In this document: one piece after another, positions 5,995 to 34,380 of the stretch
Layout: each line of letters opens with the position of its first letter
Numbering within the stretch: the stretch's first letter is position 1
DNA from: Sulfurisphaera javensis
GTDB taxonomy: Archaea; Thermoproteota; Thermoprotei_A; Sulfolobales; Sulfolobaceae
DNA: 64,000 nt
Reading direction: 5' to 3'
Assembly (NCBI RefSeq): GCF_041154675.1
Contig: NZ_AP031322.1
Coordinates: forward strand, 1-64,000
Position numbers and translations under genes: made by a program
The notes under the pieces: generated by a model
Told to the model about the DNA's origin: nothing
Databases searched by the model: none
What the model saw: the letters and a program-made list of their open reading frames with translations, nothing else

Positions 5995-6497
5995 GAATAC
6001 CTTATTATGTTTATGATAATATAGCAGTTGATTCGTTATTTTTAGATAAAGTTAGTGAAGCAATGGATAGAGTGTTTTTGATAATACCTTCTTGCGAAAA
6101 GGAAGAGAGAGAAGGAATAGAAGGATTAACTGAAGAAAAAGTTCTTCAACTCTTAGAAGATGCTTACTTTTCTTTGAGGGAAGAAAAGAGAAGGATAAAT
6201 AAATTTGACATAATGAAAAACTTTTACAATCCCGGTATTTATATAAGTAGTAGATATAATGAAATAAGAAGAAATGCAGAGATAAAAATCTTTAGAGATA
6301 TTCTTGAAAGAGTTCTTAATAAAATTAAAACTACAAAATCAAGGAAAGTTTGGTATGAAGTAAAGTTAAAAGAAGAACAAGTTTTTGTTTGTGATAAGTT
6401 GTCAAAATCTTATTCGATCCTTTACAGAGCAGATGAGAACTTCAGAAATTATTTTAATTATTACATGAAACAGTTTAATGATGATAATAAACGATAA
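5991..6497 (+). CDS. Hypothetical protein in the transporter/alpha-galactosidase operon
   Basis: Charged, soluble protein of 168 residues; I recognise no domain. It is predicted helical with Lys/Glu-rich stretches and no signal peptide. The start is a TTG overlapping the permease stop (TTGA), and the next gene's ATG lies 20 bases before its own stop, so it is translationally coupled to both. Its constant position between a sugar-type permease and a galactosidase would be worth testing in other genomes. Confidence 0.7.
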   Translation: MRIPYYVYDNIAVDSLFLDKVSEAMDRVFLIIPSCEKEEREGIEGLTEEKVLQLLEDAYFSLREEKRRINKFDIMKNFYNPGIYISSRYNEIRRNAEIKIFRDILERVLNKIKTTKSRKVWYEVKLKEEQVFVCDKLSKSYSILYRADENFRNYFNYYMKQFNDDNKR

Positions 6498-8064
6498 TGG
6501 AAGTTATGGTGTTTATATCGAGAAAGAAAGTGAAAAAATTCCTTTTGAAATAAAGGGAAAAATTTTAGCCCTAACTTTATCCCCAATAATTGATTATTCA
6601 ACTGGATTTAAGTACTATAATGAGCTCTATGCTTTTGGAAAGACTGATGCTCAAACTCCTCATTTAAGAGTAACTGATGAAAGCATAATAAGGGAAGTTT
6701 ATTATTGGACTTATCCTTCTTGGAAAATAATTTACCCTACTATTGCAATCCTCTCTTACGATGTAAATTATAAAGCTTATATTACAACCTATAATAATGG
6801 TTTAGTTGCCTATTTCGGAAAAAACTTTCTGGAAGTAAAAGGTAAAAGAGGGAAGTTTGGTTGGATTTTATTTACTGCTGAAAGTAAAGATCCTTATGAT
6901 GCTATAAGAAAAGCCTATGAGAAAATGAGAGATAAGCTTAACGTAAAACTTAGAGAAGAGAAGAAAAAGCCTAGAATTGTAGGAAAGATCGGTTGGTGTA
7001 GTTGGAATGCATTTCTTAGCAAAGTTTCTGAAGAGGATGTTATAAAAACTGTTAAAAGTATCATAGAAAAAGGGCTAAAATTAGATTTCGTTTTAATTGA
7101 TGACGGTTGGGAGAAAATAAAGGATTTTGCTTTAGATTCCTTAGAACCTAATGAAAAATTCTCTTTTCCTAGATTAATTAAAAAGTTAAAAGAGCTAGGA
7201 ATAAACGAAATTGGTTTATGGACTACAATAAACTTATATTGGAAAGGTTTTACAGAAAAAGTTAAAGAAGAGTTGAAAGATGGAGAAAAGAAGGGAGATT
7301 ACTATTTTCCTCCTACTGATTTAGAAAGAGCATTCCTATTTTATTACAATTATTTCAAAAGAATTAAGGATTATGGTTTCACTTTTGTCAAAATAGATAA
7401 CCAATGTATAATGAAAGAGAAACCAGAAAATATACATACAGCTATTCAGCTAGTTGCAAAACTTCTCGATTTAGATATACTTAATTGTATGTCTATGGAA
7501 CCTGAATGTTACTCAAATTACTTTTCCTCAAATTTAATGAGAGTGTCAAATGATTATATACCGATGTGGAGAGAAGCTGGGAAAATTCAATTAATTAATG
7601 CCTCTTATAATTCCTTATTTTATCAAAATATTGCTTATCCAGATTTTGATATGTTTTCCTCTTATGATACTGACTCCTTACCTCACATAATTGCAAGAAT
7701 TTTTAGTGGTGGCCCAGTATATATTACTGATAAAGACGTAGAAAAGACTAGGATTGACTTATTCAGACTGGTTAATCAAGTTGATTTTCCAGCAATGGTA
7801 ACTAGAGATATCCTATTCGTAAATCCGTACATAGAAGATGTATTCTTAAAGCTAGCTACAAAAATTAACGGAAAACCAGCCTTAGCTTTGTTTAATGTTA
7901 ATAACAAAAAGATAAAGGAAAAAGTGAAAAAAGAAGTTTTCCCGTTTACAGTAAATTGTGGCAAATTTACTAAAATTATAAGTAAAGAAAAAGGGGAAGT
8001 AGGAGATGAAATAGAGCTTGAAGAGATGGGTGTTGAAGTACTCCTATTCGAGTGTAACAACTAA
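6478..8064 (+). CDS. galS: GH36-type alpha-galactosidase (GalS-like)
   Basis: Predicted cytoplasmic retaining alpha-galactosidase of glycoside hydrolase family 36 (528 aa), related to GalS of S. solfataricus and to plant raffinose synthases. Visible motifs are KIGWCSWNAF and LIDDGWE, the nucleophile segment FVKIDNQ (Asp307) and the acid/base segment RVSNDYIP (Asp359). Their spacing of 52 residues is close to that of the characterised enzyme (Asp367/Asp425). It is shorter than GalS, mainly at the N-terminus. As the last gene of the importer operon it would release galactose from imported alpha-galactosides. Its 3' end overlaps the convergent GH116 gene. Confidence 0.88.
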   Translation: MMIINDNGSYGVYIEKESEKIPFEIKGKILALTLSPIIDYSTGFKYYNELYAFGKTDAQTPHLRVTDESIIREVYYWTYPSWKIIYPTIAILSYDVNYKAYITTYNNGLVAYFGKNFLEVKGKRGKFGWILFTAESKDPYDAIRKAYEKMRDKLNVKLREEKKKPRIVGKIGWCSWNAFLSKVSEEDVIKTVKSIIEKGLKLDFVLIDDGWEKIKDFALDSLEPNEKFSFPRLIKKLKELGINEIGLWTTINLYWKGFTEKVKEELKDGEKKGDYYFPPTDLERAFLFYYNYFKRIKDYGFTFVKIDNQCIMKEKPENIHTAIQLVAKLLDLDILNCMSMEPECYSNYFSSNLMRVSNDYIPMWREAGKIQLINASYNSLFYQNIAYPDFDMFSSYDTDSLPHIIARIFSGGPVYITDKDVEKTRIDLFRLVNQVDFPAMVTRDILFVNPYIEDVFLKLATKINGKPALALFNVNNKKIKEKVKKEVFPFTVNCGKFTKIISKEKGEVGDEIELEEMGVEVLLFECNN

Positions 8065-10517
8065 CTCTTTCTCAGCAACGATCTTACCTTCAACTTTTTT
8101 GCCATCACAAACTATCTCCTTTACTTTCTTTCCATTGACTTCAATTTCTTCAACCTCAATTTTTCCTTCGATTAGCTGAATTCTCAATTCTTTTCCCGTG
8201 AAAATGGCCTTTCCCCAGAAGTCCGGTAAAAGTATTATCCATTCAATTTCATTAACCGGATCAAATGATAATTTTTTCCCATCAAATCTTATTCCAAAAT
8301 ATGCTGGAATTATCAGAAGAGAAGATAAAGGTCTGGAATAGTGTGCTCCCCATTCCCAATGGTTCCAGAAATTGCCAGCTAAAGCATATCTATCATATAC
8401 TTCTTTAAGAACTTTCTTAGCTTCATCTATCATCTTTTCGTAAATTAAATGAGAAGCTAAGTAGAACTCTACACCACTCCATGGAGTATCTTGCTGAATG
8501 CTTGCCTTAATCTTTAAAGGATTCTCATATTCTCTTCCAAAAGGTCTATAATTATCTGGATAAGCACCATTAATTGTCCCCTCTCCTTCCTTAAGATTAT
8601 ATCTTATTATGGAGTTTAAGACTTTCTTAACAGTTTCCTTATCTAATAGATTATCATTAAGAAGAGTCAGATAGAACTCTCCAAGGAGTTGTGAAGCATT
8701 TGAAGCTTTATCTCTAAACCCAGAAACTGGATCGTACCAATTATCAAAATACTCTCCGTTCCATAAAAGTTCTTTATAGAGATATAATAAGTCTTTGACA
8801 TCATAACCTAATAACTTTAATGCAACTATTCCCAAAAATGACGTAAATGAGGAAATGCCTATGTTAGTCCAATCATCAAATGTGTTTACACTCATTGGCA
8901 AGGACTCCATATTTACGATTGAACTAATAAACCACGGGTTATTAAATAACCAAGAATTTTCATCAATTTTTAAGTAATTTTGAATTTGCCAGACATATTC
9001 ATGACCAGCAGGAAGTCTACTGTAAATTAAGCCTTTATATGAGTGAGTTCTTAGTACACTATTCATTGCTTCTTTAGCTATTGGTTCTAAAGTTTTTTTT
9101 TAAACACTTCATCCCTAGTGTAGGTCGAAACATAAGCCCACATTAATACAAACTCCGGATTTAGATCATTTCTGCCATATTCATCAACAATTCCTCTAGT
9201 TATGAAGTGCGGTATTCTTCCTTTAGGATCTTTTCCAGTCTCCCTCACAACCTCTTTAACGGTTTTTAACAACTTCTCGTAAGAAGAAAGAATTGAAGGA
9301 TCTTTACTTAGTTTTTCAACATATTTCTCCTTATTTTCTGGAATAGTCAATGAATATAAAATATAATAGGGAGAACTATCAGACAGTATATTTTCAGAAG
9401 CTTTTATTAAGATGTTTTTAGCTAATGAGGGAAAAAGTGAAGTTAATACTGGCATGAAGTAAGTTATTACATCAATTGTGTTAAACGCACCATTTACTGG
9501 GCCATCAGTATAAGGATGTTCCCCAACTCTCCTTTCGTCTGAAGCATTATAATATCCTTCCCATATGTAAAAGTCACCTTCCTTTGATAACCATGTTGCT
9601 TTTTGTAAAGTAGTTAATTGGGAACCAGCTAAATCAGCAATCCATTCCTCAACCCCTTTAGGGTGATAAAGTAAATCATGAAAAGTTTCTGTTTGCCTCT
9701 TTAGATAATCGTAGTTCTCCTCAACGTAATTAATTACATCAATGCAATTAGAGAAGTAATTCTCATAATAATGACCTATTTTCTTACCCCTAAAGTTCAA
9801 ATGATTTTGGAAGTACCAGGCTAAAATAAATTTATTCCCTTCTGTAGTGATAATTCCCCATTTTTCACCCTCATTTCCAGAAATGTAACCTTTCTCTCTG
9901 AGCTCATTCCACTCTTTATAAGACGGGAAACTGTTTAACTTGGCAAAAATTGGTTTTTCAGCCTTAATACAAAGATTTCCATTATATCTAGGGTCTTTAG
10001 GGTCTGTTTCGCCAGAGAAATACAAAACATCTCCCTTAAATTCAATTCTTCCATTTTCGAATGGATTCTTAATTCCAATAATGTAAGTAGCTCTGGTGTC
10101 ATACTCAAATATTGCAACTGGCAATGATGAGTTTTTTAGGTCATGAGGAATGAAAGGAGAGAAAGCCTCAAGCTTTATTTCAAAATCATCTTTAAAAGTT
10201 AAGTAAGCTATTGGTGGTTCTCCTACATATTCTATTTCTTTAACTGGTCTTACCCATGGGGCTGTATAAGGACTTGCACCATAATAGTAATCATAAGCTT
10301 GAAGAATTCTAACCTTTCCTTGATATTTAATTGCAGTAAAGAAATCGTATTGAGTTAAATAATACGTTTTCCTTATGTCTAATCTCTCTGTAAAACCGCC
10401 ATTATTAAAGATTGTCCAGTCATAAAGTCTTCCGTCTGCCCTTATTTCTATTGAACCAGTACCTAAACCTCCTAATACTACTCCAGAGTCTAGTGAATAA
10501 GAATATTTATATTTCAT
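8044..10517 (-). CDS. GH116 glycosidase split by a -1 frameshift at an A9 run
   Basis: Two frames together make one GH116 (GBA2-like beta-glucosidase/xylosidase) enzyme. The first (10517-9087, 476 codons) holds the N-terminal beta domain and the predicted nucleophile Glu320 (YIWEGYY). The second (open from before 9066 to 8044, 340 codons from its first ATG) holds the acid/base segment NTFDDW. They meet at nine consecutive A (9093-9101 on the reported strand as T9), read TTT-AAA-AAA-AAA-CTT-TAG. A -1 slip there gives about 824 residues and restores the family sequence (KKTLEPIAKEAMNS). Neither half alone has both catalytic residues. S. solfataricus alpha-fucosidase is a known case of -1 frameshifting at an A-rich heptamer; sequencing error or a true null allele remain possible. 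Confidence 0.85.
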
Positions 10518-10768
10518 GATATGAGATACAAAATACTCATTAATTTAATTTACGATAATGAAGTGACAATTTCTTTTTTCTGATAAAATATAAGGAATTA
10601 ACGAAATTTATCGTAATGTATATAGAAAGTTAAAAGATTTCTTGAAAGATCTACTGATGAAATAAGTTAAGAGGAGGAGGGAAGTTAAAAAAGTACAAGT
10701 GAAGACATCATATAAAGAGAAATGACAAAGATATACTCTTTGTAAAACCAAAAAGCCATAAGTTTTAT

Positions 10769-12700
10769 TTATTGAGCCTCATTTCTTACCGAGTTAACAA
10801 GTTTAATTGCATATTTTATAAACCATGGAGAGACACTTCCAATATAGTACGGTAAACCAACTTTTTTACCAGTTATTGCATCAATTCTCGAACTTTGATT
10901 CCATACACCTAAACTCTTTATAGTTTCCCACTCTCTCTTCGCAATTTCTAGTCCTTCTTCTTTTAATCCCTTTAAAATCATGTGAGCTGAAACAGCGAAA
11001 GCTACTCTTGACCAACAACTCCTCATTTGGTCTGTTTCTGTGTCTATACTTCCATCTGGATTAACTGAGTTAACTAAGCAATATTTAGAAGCCTTGTAGT
11101 TCAACTCATATATACTCTTTAATGCAGAAATTATTTTCTCTTCATCAGCTATTGGTTCTAAACTAAGTAACTCACACCAAAATTGTCCTAGTAACTGGGA
11201 GGACATACAACTTTCCTTTTTTGTATTTGAAGATTTCCATGCAATGAAGTATTTTCCGTTAAAGAGAGAATTATATGTCTCCATTCCTTTCCTTAAACAA
11301 TCCTCATAATTAGAAGAGTCTTTCCCTAAAATCTTAGAGGCTGAAATAAAAGCTCTTAATGCACAAAGGAACATTGAGGCTACATAAGAGGAAGCACCAA
11401 ACATATAAGTACCGTCATAGGAATTATCTAATCCTCCTTTACTGTCTGGAATACAGTCCTTGTCTTTATCTAGAGAAAGCAAATAATCAATAGCCTCTTT
11501 CATTTTCTCATAGTTCCTCTTTAGAAAATCAAGGTCGTTTGTGAATTTGTAATCTCTATACATCATTAAAACCCAGGTTGATGCTAAATCTGTCCATGGA
11601 TAATTAGAAGATGCACCATAGATTGGTGATTCAATACTTTCCTCTCCAAGATCATGTGGTACTTCACCATTCCTCAAAAACAAACCAAAGTACTCATCCA
11701 TTTTCTTCACTAAATCTGGGTATAATTCAAGTAAAGCAAATGATACAGCATCGTAAGTCATGGTACCAATAGTGTTCATTAGAAGAGTAACCTCTGGATC
11801 TTCATAAACTGCAAATCTGCCATCTTTGGTTAACCAACTGTAAGTTAAAACGTAAAGACCATCACGATAAACTTCATTTATCCAACTATCTTCATCTTCA
11901 AGTTCAGGTTTTAAATCGTTTAATAAAACGTATTCTGCAACCTCATAAGAGTTGTTAAACCAATTTTCATAATAGTGACCATAGGGATAATTATAAGGTC
12001 TACCATTAAAGTACCATGAAAGAATAAATTTTTCTTCACCATGAACCTCTTTCCATACAATGCCAGCAATTTCTTCCCTTGCGTAAGGTTCGATTTTATA
12101 ATAATCACTTTCCCTTAGTTCAAGAAGTGGAGTGATATCTTCAGTCATTCCCTTTCTTGATGGTCTAAGATAGCTATAGCCAGCAAAAACTTTACAACCT
12201 ATACATCCTAAAAACATATTACCATAAGCTGGGTCTTGTTGTAAAGCTTTTTCGTTTGTAAAAAGTACCCCATTAATTTTCCTCTTTATTGCATAATTCT
12301 CTCTACCTTCTCTTCTACTTCCTACTAAGTTTGGAAAAGAAATAGCAAATACTCCTTCTCCTTTTACATGGAATACAATAGCAGGTAATGACGAGTCTTT
12401 AAGACTTTTATTTATGATTGAGAAAACTGTAACTGTAGTGTTTACCTCTGGTATTTCATAAGTAATTATTGGGAATTTCTCCTTTGAAATTATCTTCTTA
12501 ACTTTTCTGTATTCTGGTGGGTTTTCAATGTTTTTACCAGGGTTAGTTTGAAGGAAAATTCCATCTTTAACAATATGAAATCCTCTTATTGACCTTCTTG
12601 GATTACTCCAATTATTCATTATTGTGACATTATCAATTGTTAAATCTGGAAAGAATTCAATTTTCCCAGTACCGATACTACCAATTGGGATGCCGTTCAT
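10769..12700 (-). CDS. GH116 beta-glycosidase
   Basis: Intact GH116 enzyme of 643 residues, close in length to S. solfataricus SSO1353 (beta-glucosidase/beta-xylosidase). The N-terminal GIPIGSIGTGKIE motif opens the beta domain, followed by an (alpha/alpha)6 barrel. Predicted nucleophile is Glu300 (FAVYEDPE) and acid/base Asp429 (NSYDGTY). The spacing of 129 matches the 127 of SSO1353 (Glu335/Asp462). No signal peptide, so probably intracellular, acting on imported beta-glucosides, xylosides or GlcNAc-sides; the exact sugar cannot be read from sequence. A paralogue lies immediately downstream. Confidence 0.88.
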   Translation of the reverse strand: MNGIPIGSIGTGKIEFFPDLTIDNVTIMNNWSNPRRSIRGFHIVKDGIFLQTNPGKNIENPPEYRKVKKIISKEKFPIITYEIPEVNTTVTVFSIINKSLKDSSLPAIVFHVKGEGVFAISFPNLVGSRREGRENYAIKRKINGVLFTNEKALQQDPAYGNMFLGCIGCKVFAGYSYLRPSRKGMTEDITPLLELRESDYYKIEPYAREEIAGIVWKEVHGEEKFILSWYFNGRPYNYPYGHYYENWFNNSYEVAEYVLLNDLKPELEDEDSWINEVYRDGLYVLTYSWLTKDGRFAVYEDPEVTLLMNTIGTMTYDAVSFALLELYPDLVKKMDEYFGLFLRNGEVPHDLGEESIESPIYGASSNYPWTDLASTWVLMMYRDYKFTNDLDFLKRNYEKMKEAIDYLLSLDKDKDCIPDSKGGLDNSYDGTYMFGASSYVASMFLCALRAFISASKILGKDSSNYEDCLRKGMETYNSLFNGKYFIAWKSSNTKKESCMSSQLLGQFWCELLSLEPIADEEKIISALKSIYELNYKASKYCLVNSVNPDGSIDTETDQMRSCWSRVAFAVSAHMILKGLKEEGLEIAKREWETIKSLGVWNQSSRIDAITGKKVGLPYYIGSVSPWFIKYAIKLVNSVRNEAQ

Positions 12701-22280: not shown

Positions 22281-22727
22281 ATGAAATCATTGTTAGAAGT
22301 AAGTAGGGAAAAGAGAATAATAAGGATATTACCAATCCTATTTTTCTTATATTTCATAAATTTCCTTGATAGAGTAAACATCTCATATGCAATTGACGCA
22401 GGAACGTTTCAATATTTAGGAGTTGCAAAGAATCAAGTAGGAATAATAGCTTCCTTTGCTTCCTCATTATTCTTTGTAGGTTATTTTATTCCTCAGATAT
22501 TCTCTAATTTAGGAATAAATAAATACGGTGTAAGAAAAGTCTTTTTGATCACTTTTATAGCTTGGGGAATAATCACAATTCTAACTGGTTTTGTCACTGC
22601 TGTTATTCAAGTTGAAGTCTTAAGATTCTTACTTGGAGTTGCTGAAGGACCATTTTATGCTGGAGTTATATTTTACAAAAATGTGGACAGAAAGCCTTTG
22701 GATGGGGATGAATGTCACAAAACTTAA
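22281..22727 (+). pseudogene. Truncated MFS transporter gene
   Basis: The first about 131 residues are a typical major facilitator N-terminal part with four hydrophobic segments ([32 protein letters not shown]), in the style of anion/metabolite:H+ symporters. After FYAGVIFY (about 22676) the frame runs into unrelated sequence ([12 protein letters not shown]...) that matches a repeat also found at 38343-38367, and stops. About two thirds of the usual 12-helix protein is missing. Confidence 0.8.
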
Positions 22728-33264: not shown

Positions 33265-34380
33265 ATGCGTAAGAATTTTCTACTTTCCTCTTGGTTATTT
33301 GGTTTTGCAAATGGATTGTCTTCTCCTCTAATTTCCCTTTACATTTATGTTACATCTTCCATATATTTTAGTCTTAAATTTCTCCTTTTCACTTCACTTT
33401 TCTTATTATTTGCTTACTTTATTTCTGGTTACTTCTCAAAAGAACGTGAGGTAATAACTTTTTACAAGATAGGAATCTCTCTTTACATAATTTTTTACAC
33501 TCTCCTAGCAATCTTTAATATTAATTCTTATAAATACGTTGATATCTTATCAATAATTTATGGTTTTGCTCAAGGCTTTTATTGGTATGGATGGGATGTA
33601 ATTTTCTACAATACTCCTAAAAAATTGAATTTCTTTAATAAATCAGCATATTTAGGCTTTATCTCCTCTCTTTTAGCACCAGCAATTTATGGTACAATAT
33701 TAACGCTTTTTCATAAACTTGGTTATCTCCTTCTCTTTTTGTCTTCTTCAGCTCTTCTTATAGTTGTAATTTTATTAGCTGAGAACATGAAAGTGAAAGG
33801 AGTATTCAATTTTAAAGACTCTTTCTTAGTTATTACTAAAAATGAAAATTATAAAAATACTATGATATCTTTGTCTTTAATTGCAGGATTTAACTATATT
33901 ACGGGAAATATCAACCCTATTATTCTTTATTCATTTACGAGAAATTACTTAGATTTCTCTCTAATAAACTATGTTTTAAATGCTGTATCTCTTACATCAA
34001 TCTACTTAGTTAGACAAAGATACGTTAGCAAAGTAAAGCCTTACAACATTGTTCTTTTGTCTTCTTTAGCAATTTCCTTCTCTTCTTTTTCTCTTTTCTT
34101 CTTTCCACTTATGTATTTAATAGTATATAATTTCTTCTCTCCATTAATTTATCCTATAATAGACATTTATAATTGGAATAACATGGATAGAAATTATCTC
34201 ATAAATTATTTAATAAATAGGCAAATTTTCCTTAATGTCAGTAGGATTCTCTCAGCCACTATAGACATTTTAGTATTTTCATCATTTGACGTAATCTCTT
34301 TAGTACCATTACTATTACTAGCTTCAATAATATTCTATAGAAAAAGAAAGGTTGCAGTTCCATTGACACAAAGTTTGTAG
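33265..34380 (+). CDS. MFS-like membrane transporter
   Basis: 371-residue integral membrane protein with about 11-12 hydrophobic segments and a short central cytoplasmic loop (AENMKVKGVFNFKDSF), consistent with the major facilitator fold. The usual motif A (GxLaDrxGrr) is not evident, so it is a diverged member. Substrate unknown. It is a single gene upstream of the CoA synthetase, 157 bases apart. Confidence 0.7.
   Translation: MRKNFLLSSWLFGFANGLSSPLISLYIYVTSSIYFSLKFLLFTSLFLLFAYFISGYFSKEREVITFYKIGISLYIIFYTLLAIFNINSYKYVDILSIIYGFAQGFYWYGWDVIFYNTPKKLNFFNKSAYLGFISSLLAPAIYGTILTLFHKLGYLLLFLSSSALLIVVILLAENMKVKGVFNFKDSFLVITKNENYKNTMISLSLIAGFNYITGNINPIILYSFTRNYLDFSLINYVLNAVSLTSIYLVRQRYVSKVKPYNIVLLSSLAISFSSFSLFFFPLMYLIVYNFFSPLIYPIIDIYNWNNMDRNYLINYLINRQIFLNVSRILSATIDILVFSSFDVISLVPLLLLASIIFYRKRKVAVPLTQSL

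Follow-up and report, generated by a model that had tools for sequence, protein, structure and literature searches.

Organization of the split GH116 gene

The window analysed here, a stretch of 64 kb from the start of a single Sulfurisphaera javensis contig, contains a GH116 gene whose reading frame is interrupted at a run of nine A. The whole gene extends on the minus strand over 10517..8044, and a second, intact GH116 gene lies upstream of it on the same strand. The features of this region are listed below.

10769..12700, minus strand: second GH116 gene, intact, 643 aa, upstream of the split gene and on the same strand
10518..10768, minus strand: gap of 251 bp between the two GH116 genes; the congeners have a 367-aa gene there
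10517..9087, minus strand: upstream ORF of the split GH116 gene, 476 aa by ORF translation, with TAG at 9087-9089
9093-9101, minus strand (T9 on the plus strand): A9 homopolymer, site of the frame break, read in frame as AAA AAA AAA
9087-9089, minus strand: TAG that closes the zero frame, separated from the A9 run by a single CTT codon
9100..8044, minus strand: downstream (-1) frame of the split GH116 gene, open from the A9 run to 8044

On the minus strand the joint reads GAT GAA GTG TTT AAA AAA AAA CTT TAG. A -1 step at the A9 run gives one conceptual GH116 protein of 824 amino acids. An earlier note on this DNA had claimed that the gene shifts to the -1 frame at the run, with a TAG just after it, and that such a slip would produce one continuous GH116 protein; the sequence and its open reading frames confirm the former and conceptual translation the latter. 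The interval originally assigned to the feature, 9066-9110, encloses the joint, but the gene itself occupies 8044-10517 on the minus strand. The split of the GH116 gene in S. javensis is real.

In the -1 frame a TAA adjoins the run on its 5′ side (TGA AGT GTT TAA AAA AAA ACT), so that the overlap of the two frames is confined to the A-run and its 3′ edge. Within TTT AAA AAA AAA CTT TAG the slippery heptamer A_AAA_AAA is found in the phase of the zero frame. The first ATG of the -1 frame is located at 9066, from where 340 amino acids are encoded down to 8044.

Domains, catalytic residues and predicted fold

Pfam analysis detected the GH116 N-terminal domain (PF12215, 4.6e-24) in the first ORF and the catalytic domain DUF608 (PF04685, 8.8e-20) in the second. 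The first ORF covers the N-terminal β-sandwich and the first part of the (α/α)6 barrel, and the -1 frame covers the remaining catalytic barrel and the C-terminal β domain. The catalytic residues were placed by profile alignment to solved GH116 structures; according to the PDB titles, E441 of TxGH116 is the nucleophile and D593 the acid/base. The nucleophile Glu320 (codon 9560-9558, zero frame) aligns with the Glu of the TxGH116 motif 'AWENG', and the acid/base Asp548 (codon 8877-8875, -1 frame) aligns with the Asp of 'QTYDTW'. This agrees with the earlier assignment of Glu320 and the acid/base Asp to separate frames. Only in the conceptual 824-aa product do the catalytic Glu and Asp share one polypeptide.

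The fold was checked on the intact homologue of the congener genome G078 rather than on the S. javensis fragments. The predicted structure of this homologue (pLDDT 81, pTM 0.88) consists of a β-sandwich and an (α/α)6 barrel, with 8ic6 / ExoMA2 and TxGH116 as the best matches. In the prediction the joint falls within the opening turns of helix 476-497, which belongs to the catalytic barrel, and the 476-aa product would therefore be expected to end mid-barrel. As this product ends within the (α/α)6 barrel and lacks the acid/base Asp, neither fragment should be active alone. The conceptual full-length protein resembles SSO3039, TxGH116 and ExoMA2 in its GH116 domains and in its catalytic Glu and Asp; those three are single intact polypeptides, whereas the S. 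javensis gene is split. From the literature, the protein would be placed in subfamily 2 (SSO3039-like).

Homologues and the ancestral length of the tract

A set of homologues was gathered by whole-genome searches. All 15 Sulfolobaceae homologues, including those of three congeners, are intact single frames with no internal stop. It had been proposed to check whether relatives keep the run and the split, and the aligned homologues have neither: an A-run is absent from the joint in all 15, and the congeners read GAA TTT ATG AAA TCC TTA TAT CCT at this position. The product of a -1 shift, or of an A10 tract, contains one Lys more than every aligned homologue (those of the Sulfolobaceae and five more distant ones). 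A tract of A7, encoding VFKKTLEP, gives the usual family length at the joint, and two divergent homologues are shorter still. Since no homologue carries the extra residue, the parsimonious ancestor is A7 and not A10. On the basis of the alignment, an ancestral run of A7 is the more likely; a history from A10 to A9 is possible, but an extra codon would have been needed first.

The S. javensis genome was also searched for a redundant intact copy, and none was found; the other hit in this genome is a distant GH116 protein of 637 aa encoded at 904 kb. The split gene is the only close homologue of this GH116 β-glycosidase type in S. javensis. A scan of named genomes yielded only two distant homologues, from Bathyarchaeota.

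Long A/T runs and the reliability of the A count

The run in the GH116 gene is the only A9/T9 run observed in the window, compared with approximately 16 expected from dinucleotide shuffles. In the complete S. javensis genome (2.57 Mb) there are 16 distinct A/T runs of at least nine, most of which are intergenic or lie no more than about 45 bases from the 3′ end of an ORF. Two of the 16 are located well inside genes. One is an A10 in a kinase-like ORF that is intact; the other is the A9 of GH116, the sole run of the 16 for which an internal break of a conserved gene was seen. The A10 run is at L047:1505-1514 (genome position 2,498,204), and its kinase-like host ORF encodes 451 aa with a hydrophobic N-terminus. 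In the three congeners, for which ORFs of 120 aa or more were counted, none of 32 runs of at least nine lies inside an ORF, apart from those within 8 bases of an end. Genes of Sulfurisphaera avoid long A/T runs, and the GH116 run stands out as a mutation would.

Homopolymers are the commonest site of count errors in sequencing and assembly, and the remainder of the GH116 gene is in good order, as would be expected if the real run were A10 or A7 and the gene intact. Against such a miscount speaks the design of the KD-1T genome project (AP031322; 2,569,661 bp), in which 150-bp paired NovaSeq reads and Nanopore R9 reads were assembled with Unicycler at a coverage of 482x (PMC11636327); a published hybrid assembly of this depth makes such an error unlikely. 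Moreover, runs of 10 and 11 were called elsewhere in the same genome, a true A7 would require an overcall of two bases, and a true A10 would mean an extra codon seen in no aligned homologue. We infer that the A9 count in the assembly is correct and consider a miscount, including the A10 count that the earlier note named as a refutation, improbable.

Selection on the two halves of the gene

Invariant alignment columns were defined over 13 close homologues. S. javensis keeps nearly all of them in the upstream half (124 of 127) as well as in the downstream half (64 of 65). Synonymous change on the S. javensis branch is near saturation, and because saturated synonymous sites spoil dN/dS, we used branch dN alone together with a bootstrap. 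The dN of the S. javensis branch was 0.084 for the upstream and 0.128 for the downstream half. The downstream half has evolved slightly faster than two relatives would predict (Fisher p 0.018; bootstrap fraction 0.035), an excess that is marginal and becomes non-significant once deeper outgroups are required.

The conservation pattern indicates strong purifying selection on both halves for nearly the whole S. javensis branch and would allow a slight recent relaxation of the downstream half. As both halves were constrained along the branch, the break should be recent, or partly bypassed. The same downstream conservation would be seen in a functioning recoded gene, and loss of function is thus unproven. 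An old pseudogene was ruled out, as both halves are conserved too well.

Comparison with fucA and signals for programmed recoding

The α-L-fucosidase gene fucA of S. solfataricus (SSO11867/SSO3060) is encoded in two frames at an A-run, and a -1 shift is required for its expression as one protein (PMC8211752). It was reported with a putative stem-loop, tandem rare CAC codons and an overlap of 40 nt between the frames, and its interruption is common to two strains (PMC8211752, PMC8037382). As a positive control, our family search recovered fucA, split into parts of 81 and 426 aa, from one Saccharolobus-side genome, and no fucosidase match was obtained in the four Sulfurisphaera genomes. The interrupted fucA has a run of A6 and an intact relative one of A7, with near-identical flanks (L083, L084). 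At this joint the interrupted gene therefore has one A fewer; the review, in contrast, assigns the shorter run to the full-length genes (PMC8211752).

Both fucA and the GH116 gene are Sulfolobaceae glycosidase genes in two frames at an A-run that need a -1 shift, and in both a change in homopolymer length separates interrupted from intact genes. They also differ. The fucA site persists in the intact relative, whereas the GH116 relatives are without the run; fucA was published with a putative stem-loop, but none was detected downstream of the GH116 run; and the fucA frames overlap by 40 nt, while those of GH116 share no more than the run and its 3′ edge. For the downstream region, stem-loop folds of 40-100 nt were computed without pseudoknots, and none of them was more stable than shuffles (z 0 to +1.7); at 80 °C the folds were unfolded. 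Likewise, no SD-like motif of the GGTG/GAGG type occurs within 60 nt of the A9 run, an interval that also covers the sequence in front of the ATG at 9066.

If -1 recoding at A9 were programmed or under selection and set the enzyme level in a fucA-like manner, this could account for the in-frame A_AAA_AAA heptamer, the restriction of the frame overlap to the run and the strong constraint on the downstream half, and fucA shows that the mechanism exists in this archaeal family (PMC8211752). However, neither the split nor the run is present in any homologue, neither a downstream structure nor an SD-like element was found, and the extra Lys of the -1 product, near the start of the barrel helix, is absent from all aligned homologues. 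We therefore regard this explanation as quite improbable. The earlier inference of a second recoding case holds for the split, the catalytic residues and the slippery run, but not for programmed recoding, for which conservation and stimulators are missing. An evolved frameshift switch at A9 is not supported by these comparisons.

Two further explanations fare less well. In a phase-variable locus, replication slippage would change the length of the run back and forth, with the gene off at A9 and on at A10 or A7. A long homopolymer within an otherwise conserved gene, in S. javensis only, would suit such a locus; a surface role is not evident for GH116, however, and the run is not conserved, and phase variation is in our opinion very improbable. 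We give least credence to a split enzyme whose two subunits are translated separately and become active on assembly: conservation holds in both fragments and the downstream frame has its ATG at 9066, but no Shine-Dalgarno sequence precedes this ATG, the break is predicted to fall where a barrel helix begins and not at a domain boundary, and no relative is organised in this way. The missing Shine-Dalgarno sequence was also the reason to reject internal re-initiation at ATG 9066.

Origin of the frame break and possible bypass

Most probably, a poly-A tract for lysines in the GH116 gene has undergone a recent slippage indel that is confined to S. javensis and gives rise to truncated products and perhaps to some full-length enzyme. 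An A7 lysine tract would have arisen in the S. javensis lineage, and replication slippage from A7 to A9 (the most parsimonious path, with A10 to A9 as the alternative) would then have split the gene. Translation would normally halt after 476 residues. Some full-length enzyme may be formed if ribosomes slip back one base on A_AAA_AAA in an unprogrammed manner, or if RNA polymerase slips on A9 and the transcript gains one A or loses two.

By analogy with described cases, unprogrammed slippage at A9, for which the earlier note had left room, is plausible, be it ribosomal or transcriptional. A nine-A cassette caused 40% -1 shifting (PMC3711429), insertions of A and AA in the A8 repeat of M.HaeIII were bypassed (PMC3812077), and in some endosymbiont genes 12-50% of the transcripts regain the frame through poly-A slippage (PMC5009743). 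The GH116 gene shares with the endosymbiont poly-A genes and the M.HaeIII A8 indels an indel in a long A-run of an otherwise conserved gene. Their rescue was demonstrated from transcripts or protein, whereas that of GH116 is expected, and it would be leaky and unprogrammed. Bypass may occur at the A9 of GH116 too.

If A9 bypass yields working enzyme, the gene would be a rare natural system in which to study ribosomal or transcript slippage in a hyperthermophilic archaeon; to our knowledge, no cellular -1 shift other than that of fucA has been described in detail for hyperthermophilic archaea. Without bypass, the gene would be a recently broken one of the ordinary kind. That the GH116 gene represents a second naturally recoded Sulfolobaceae glycosidase, in which slippage at A9, by the ribosome or by the archaeal RNA polymerase, supplies so much full-length enzyme that selection continues to act on the downstream half, seems unlikely. 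Were it true, archaea could live with, or use, homopolymer frameshifts. Caution is required here, as a slippery heptamer and a conserved downstream half are to be expected wherever slippage has newly inserted or removed bases in an A-tract.

Gene neighbourhood and relationships of the two halves

In all three congeners, the homologue of the second GH116 gene also precedes that of the split gene. The order is GH116 (638-646 aa), a 367-aa transporter-like gene and the GH116 homologue; the genes overlap, and the GH116 homologue closes the set. The congener 367-aa protein has no Pfam match. Its S. javensis homologue (59% identical) is encoded at 33265-34380 on the plus strand, about 23 kb away. 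A remnant of the 367-aa gene in the 251-bp gap was considered and rejected, as there is merely a match of 10 residues at chance level. The G078 GH116 homologue has a Shine-Dalgarno sequence (TTGGAGGATG), which is absent from the S. javensis gap. Convergent to the split gene, a raffinose-synthase-like gene (PF05691) is located downstream at 6478-8064 on the plus strand and was not seen at the corresponding place in the congeners. Judged from gene order, the operon context has evidently changed in the same lineage as the gene break.

The upstream half of the split gene (9087-10517) groups with the homologue of G151, a member of another genus, and not with the congeners (99% support); the downstream half groups with G151 weakly (52% support). 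GH116 identity to the congeners is 66-69%, and that of the neighbouring genes ranges from 46 to 82%. With these unequal supports for the two halves and the widely varying identities of the neighbours, horizontal replacement of the gene is one possibility. Elsewhere in the window, a truncated MFS transporter ORF of 148 aa (22281-22727, plus strand) matches no more than the initial third of the Pfam profile and looks like a gene remnant.
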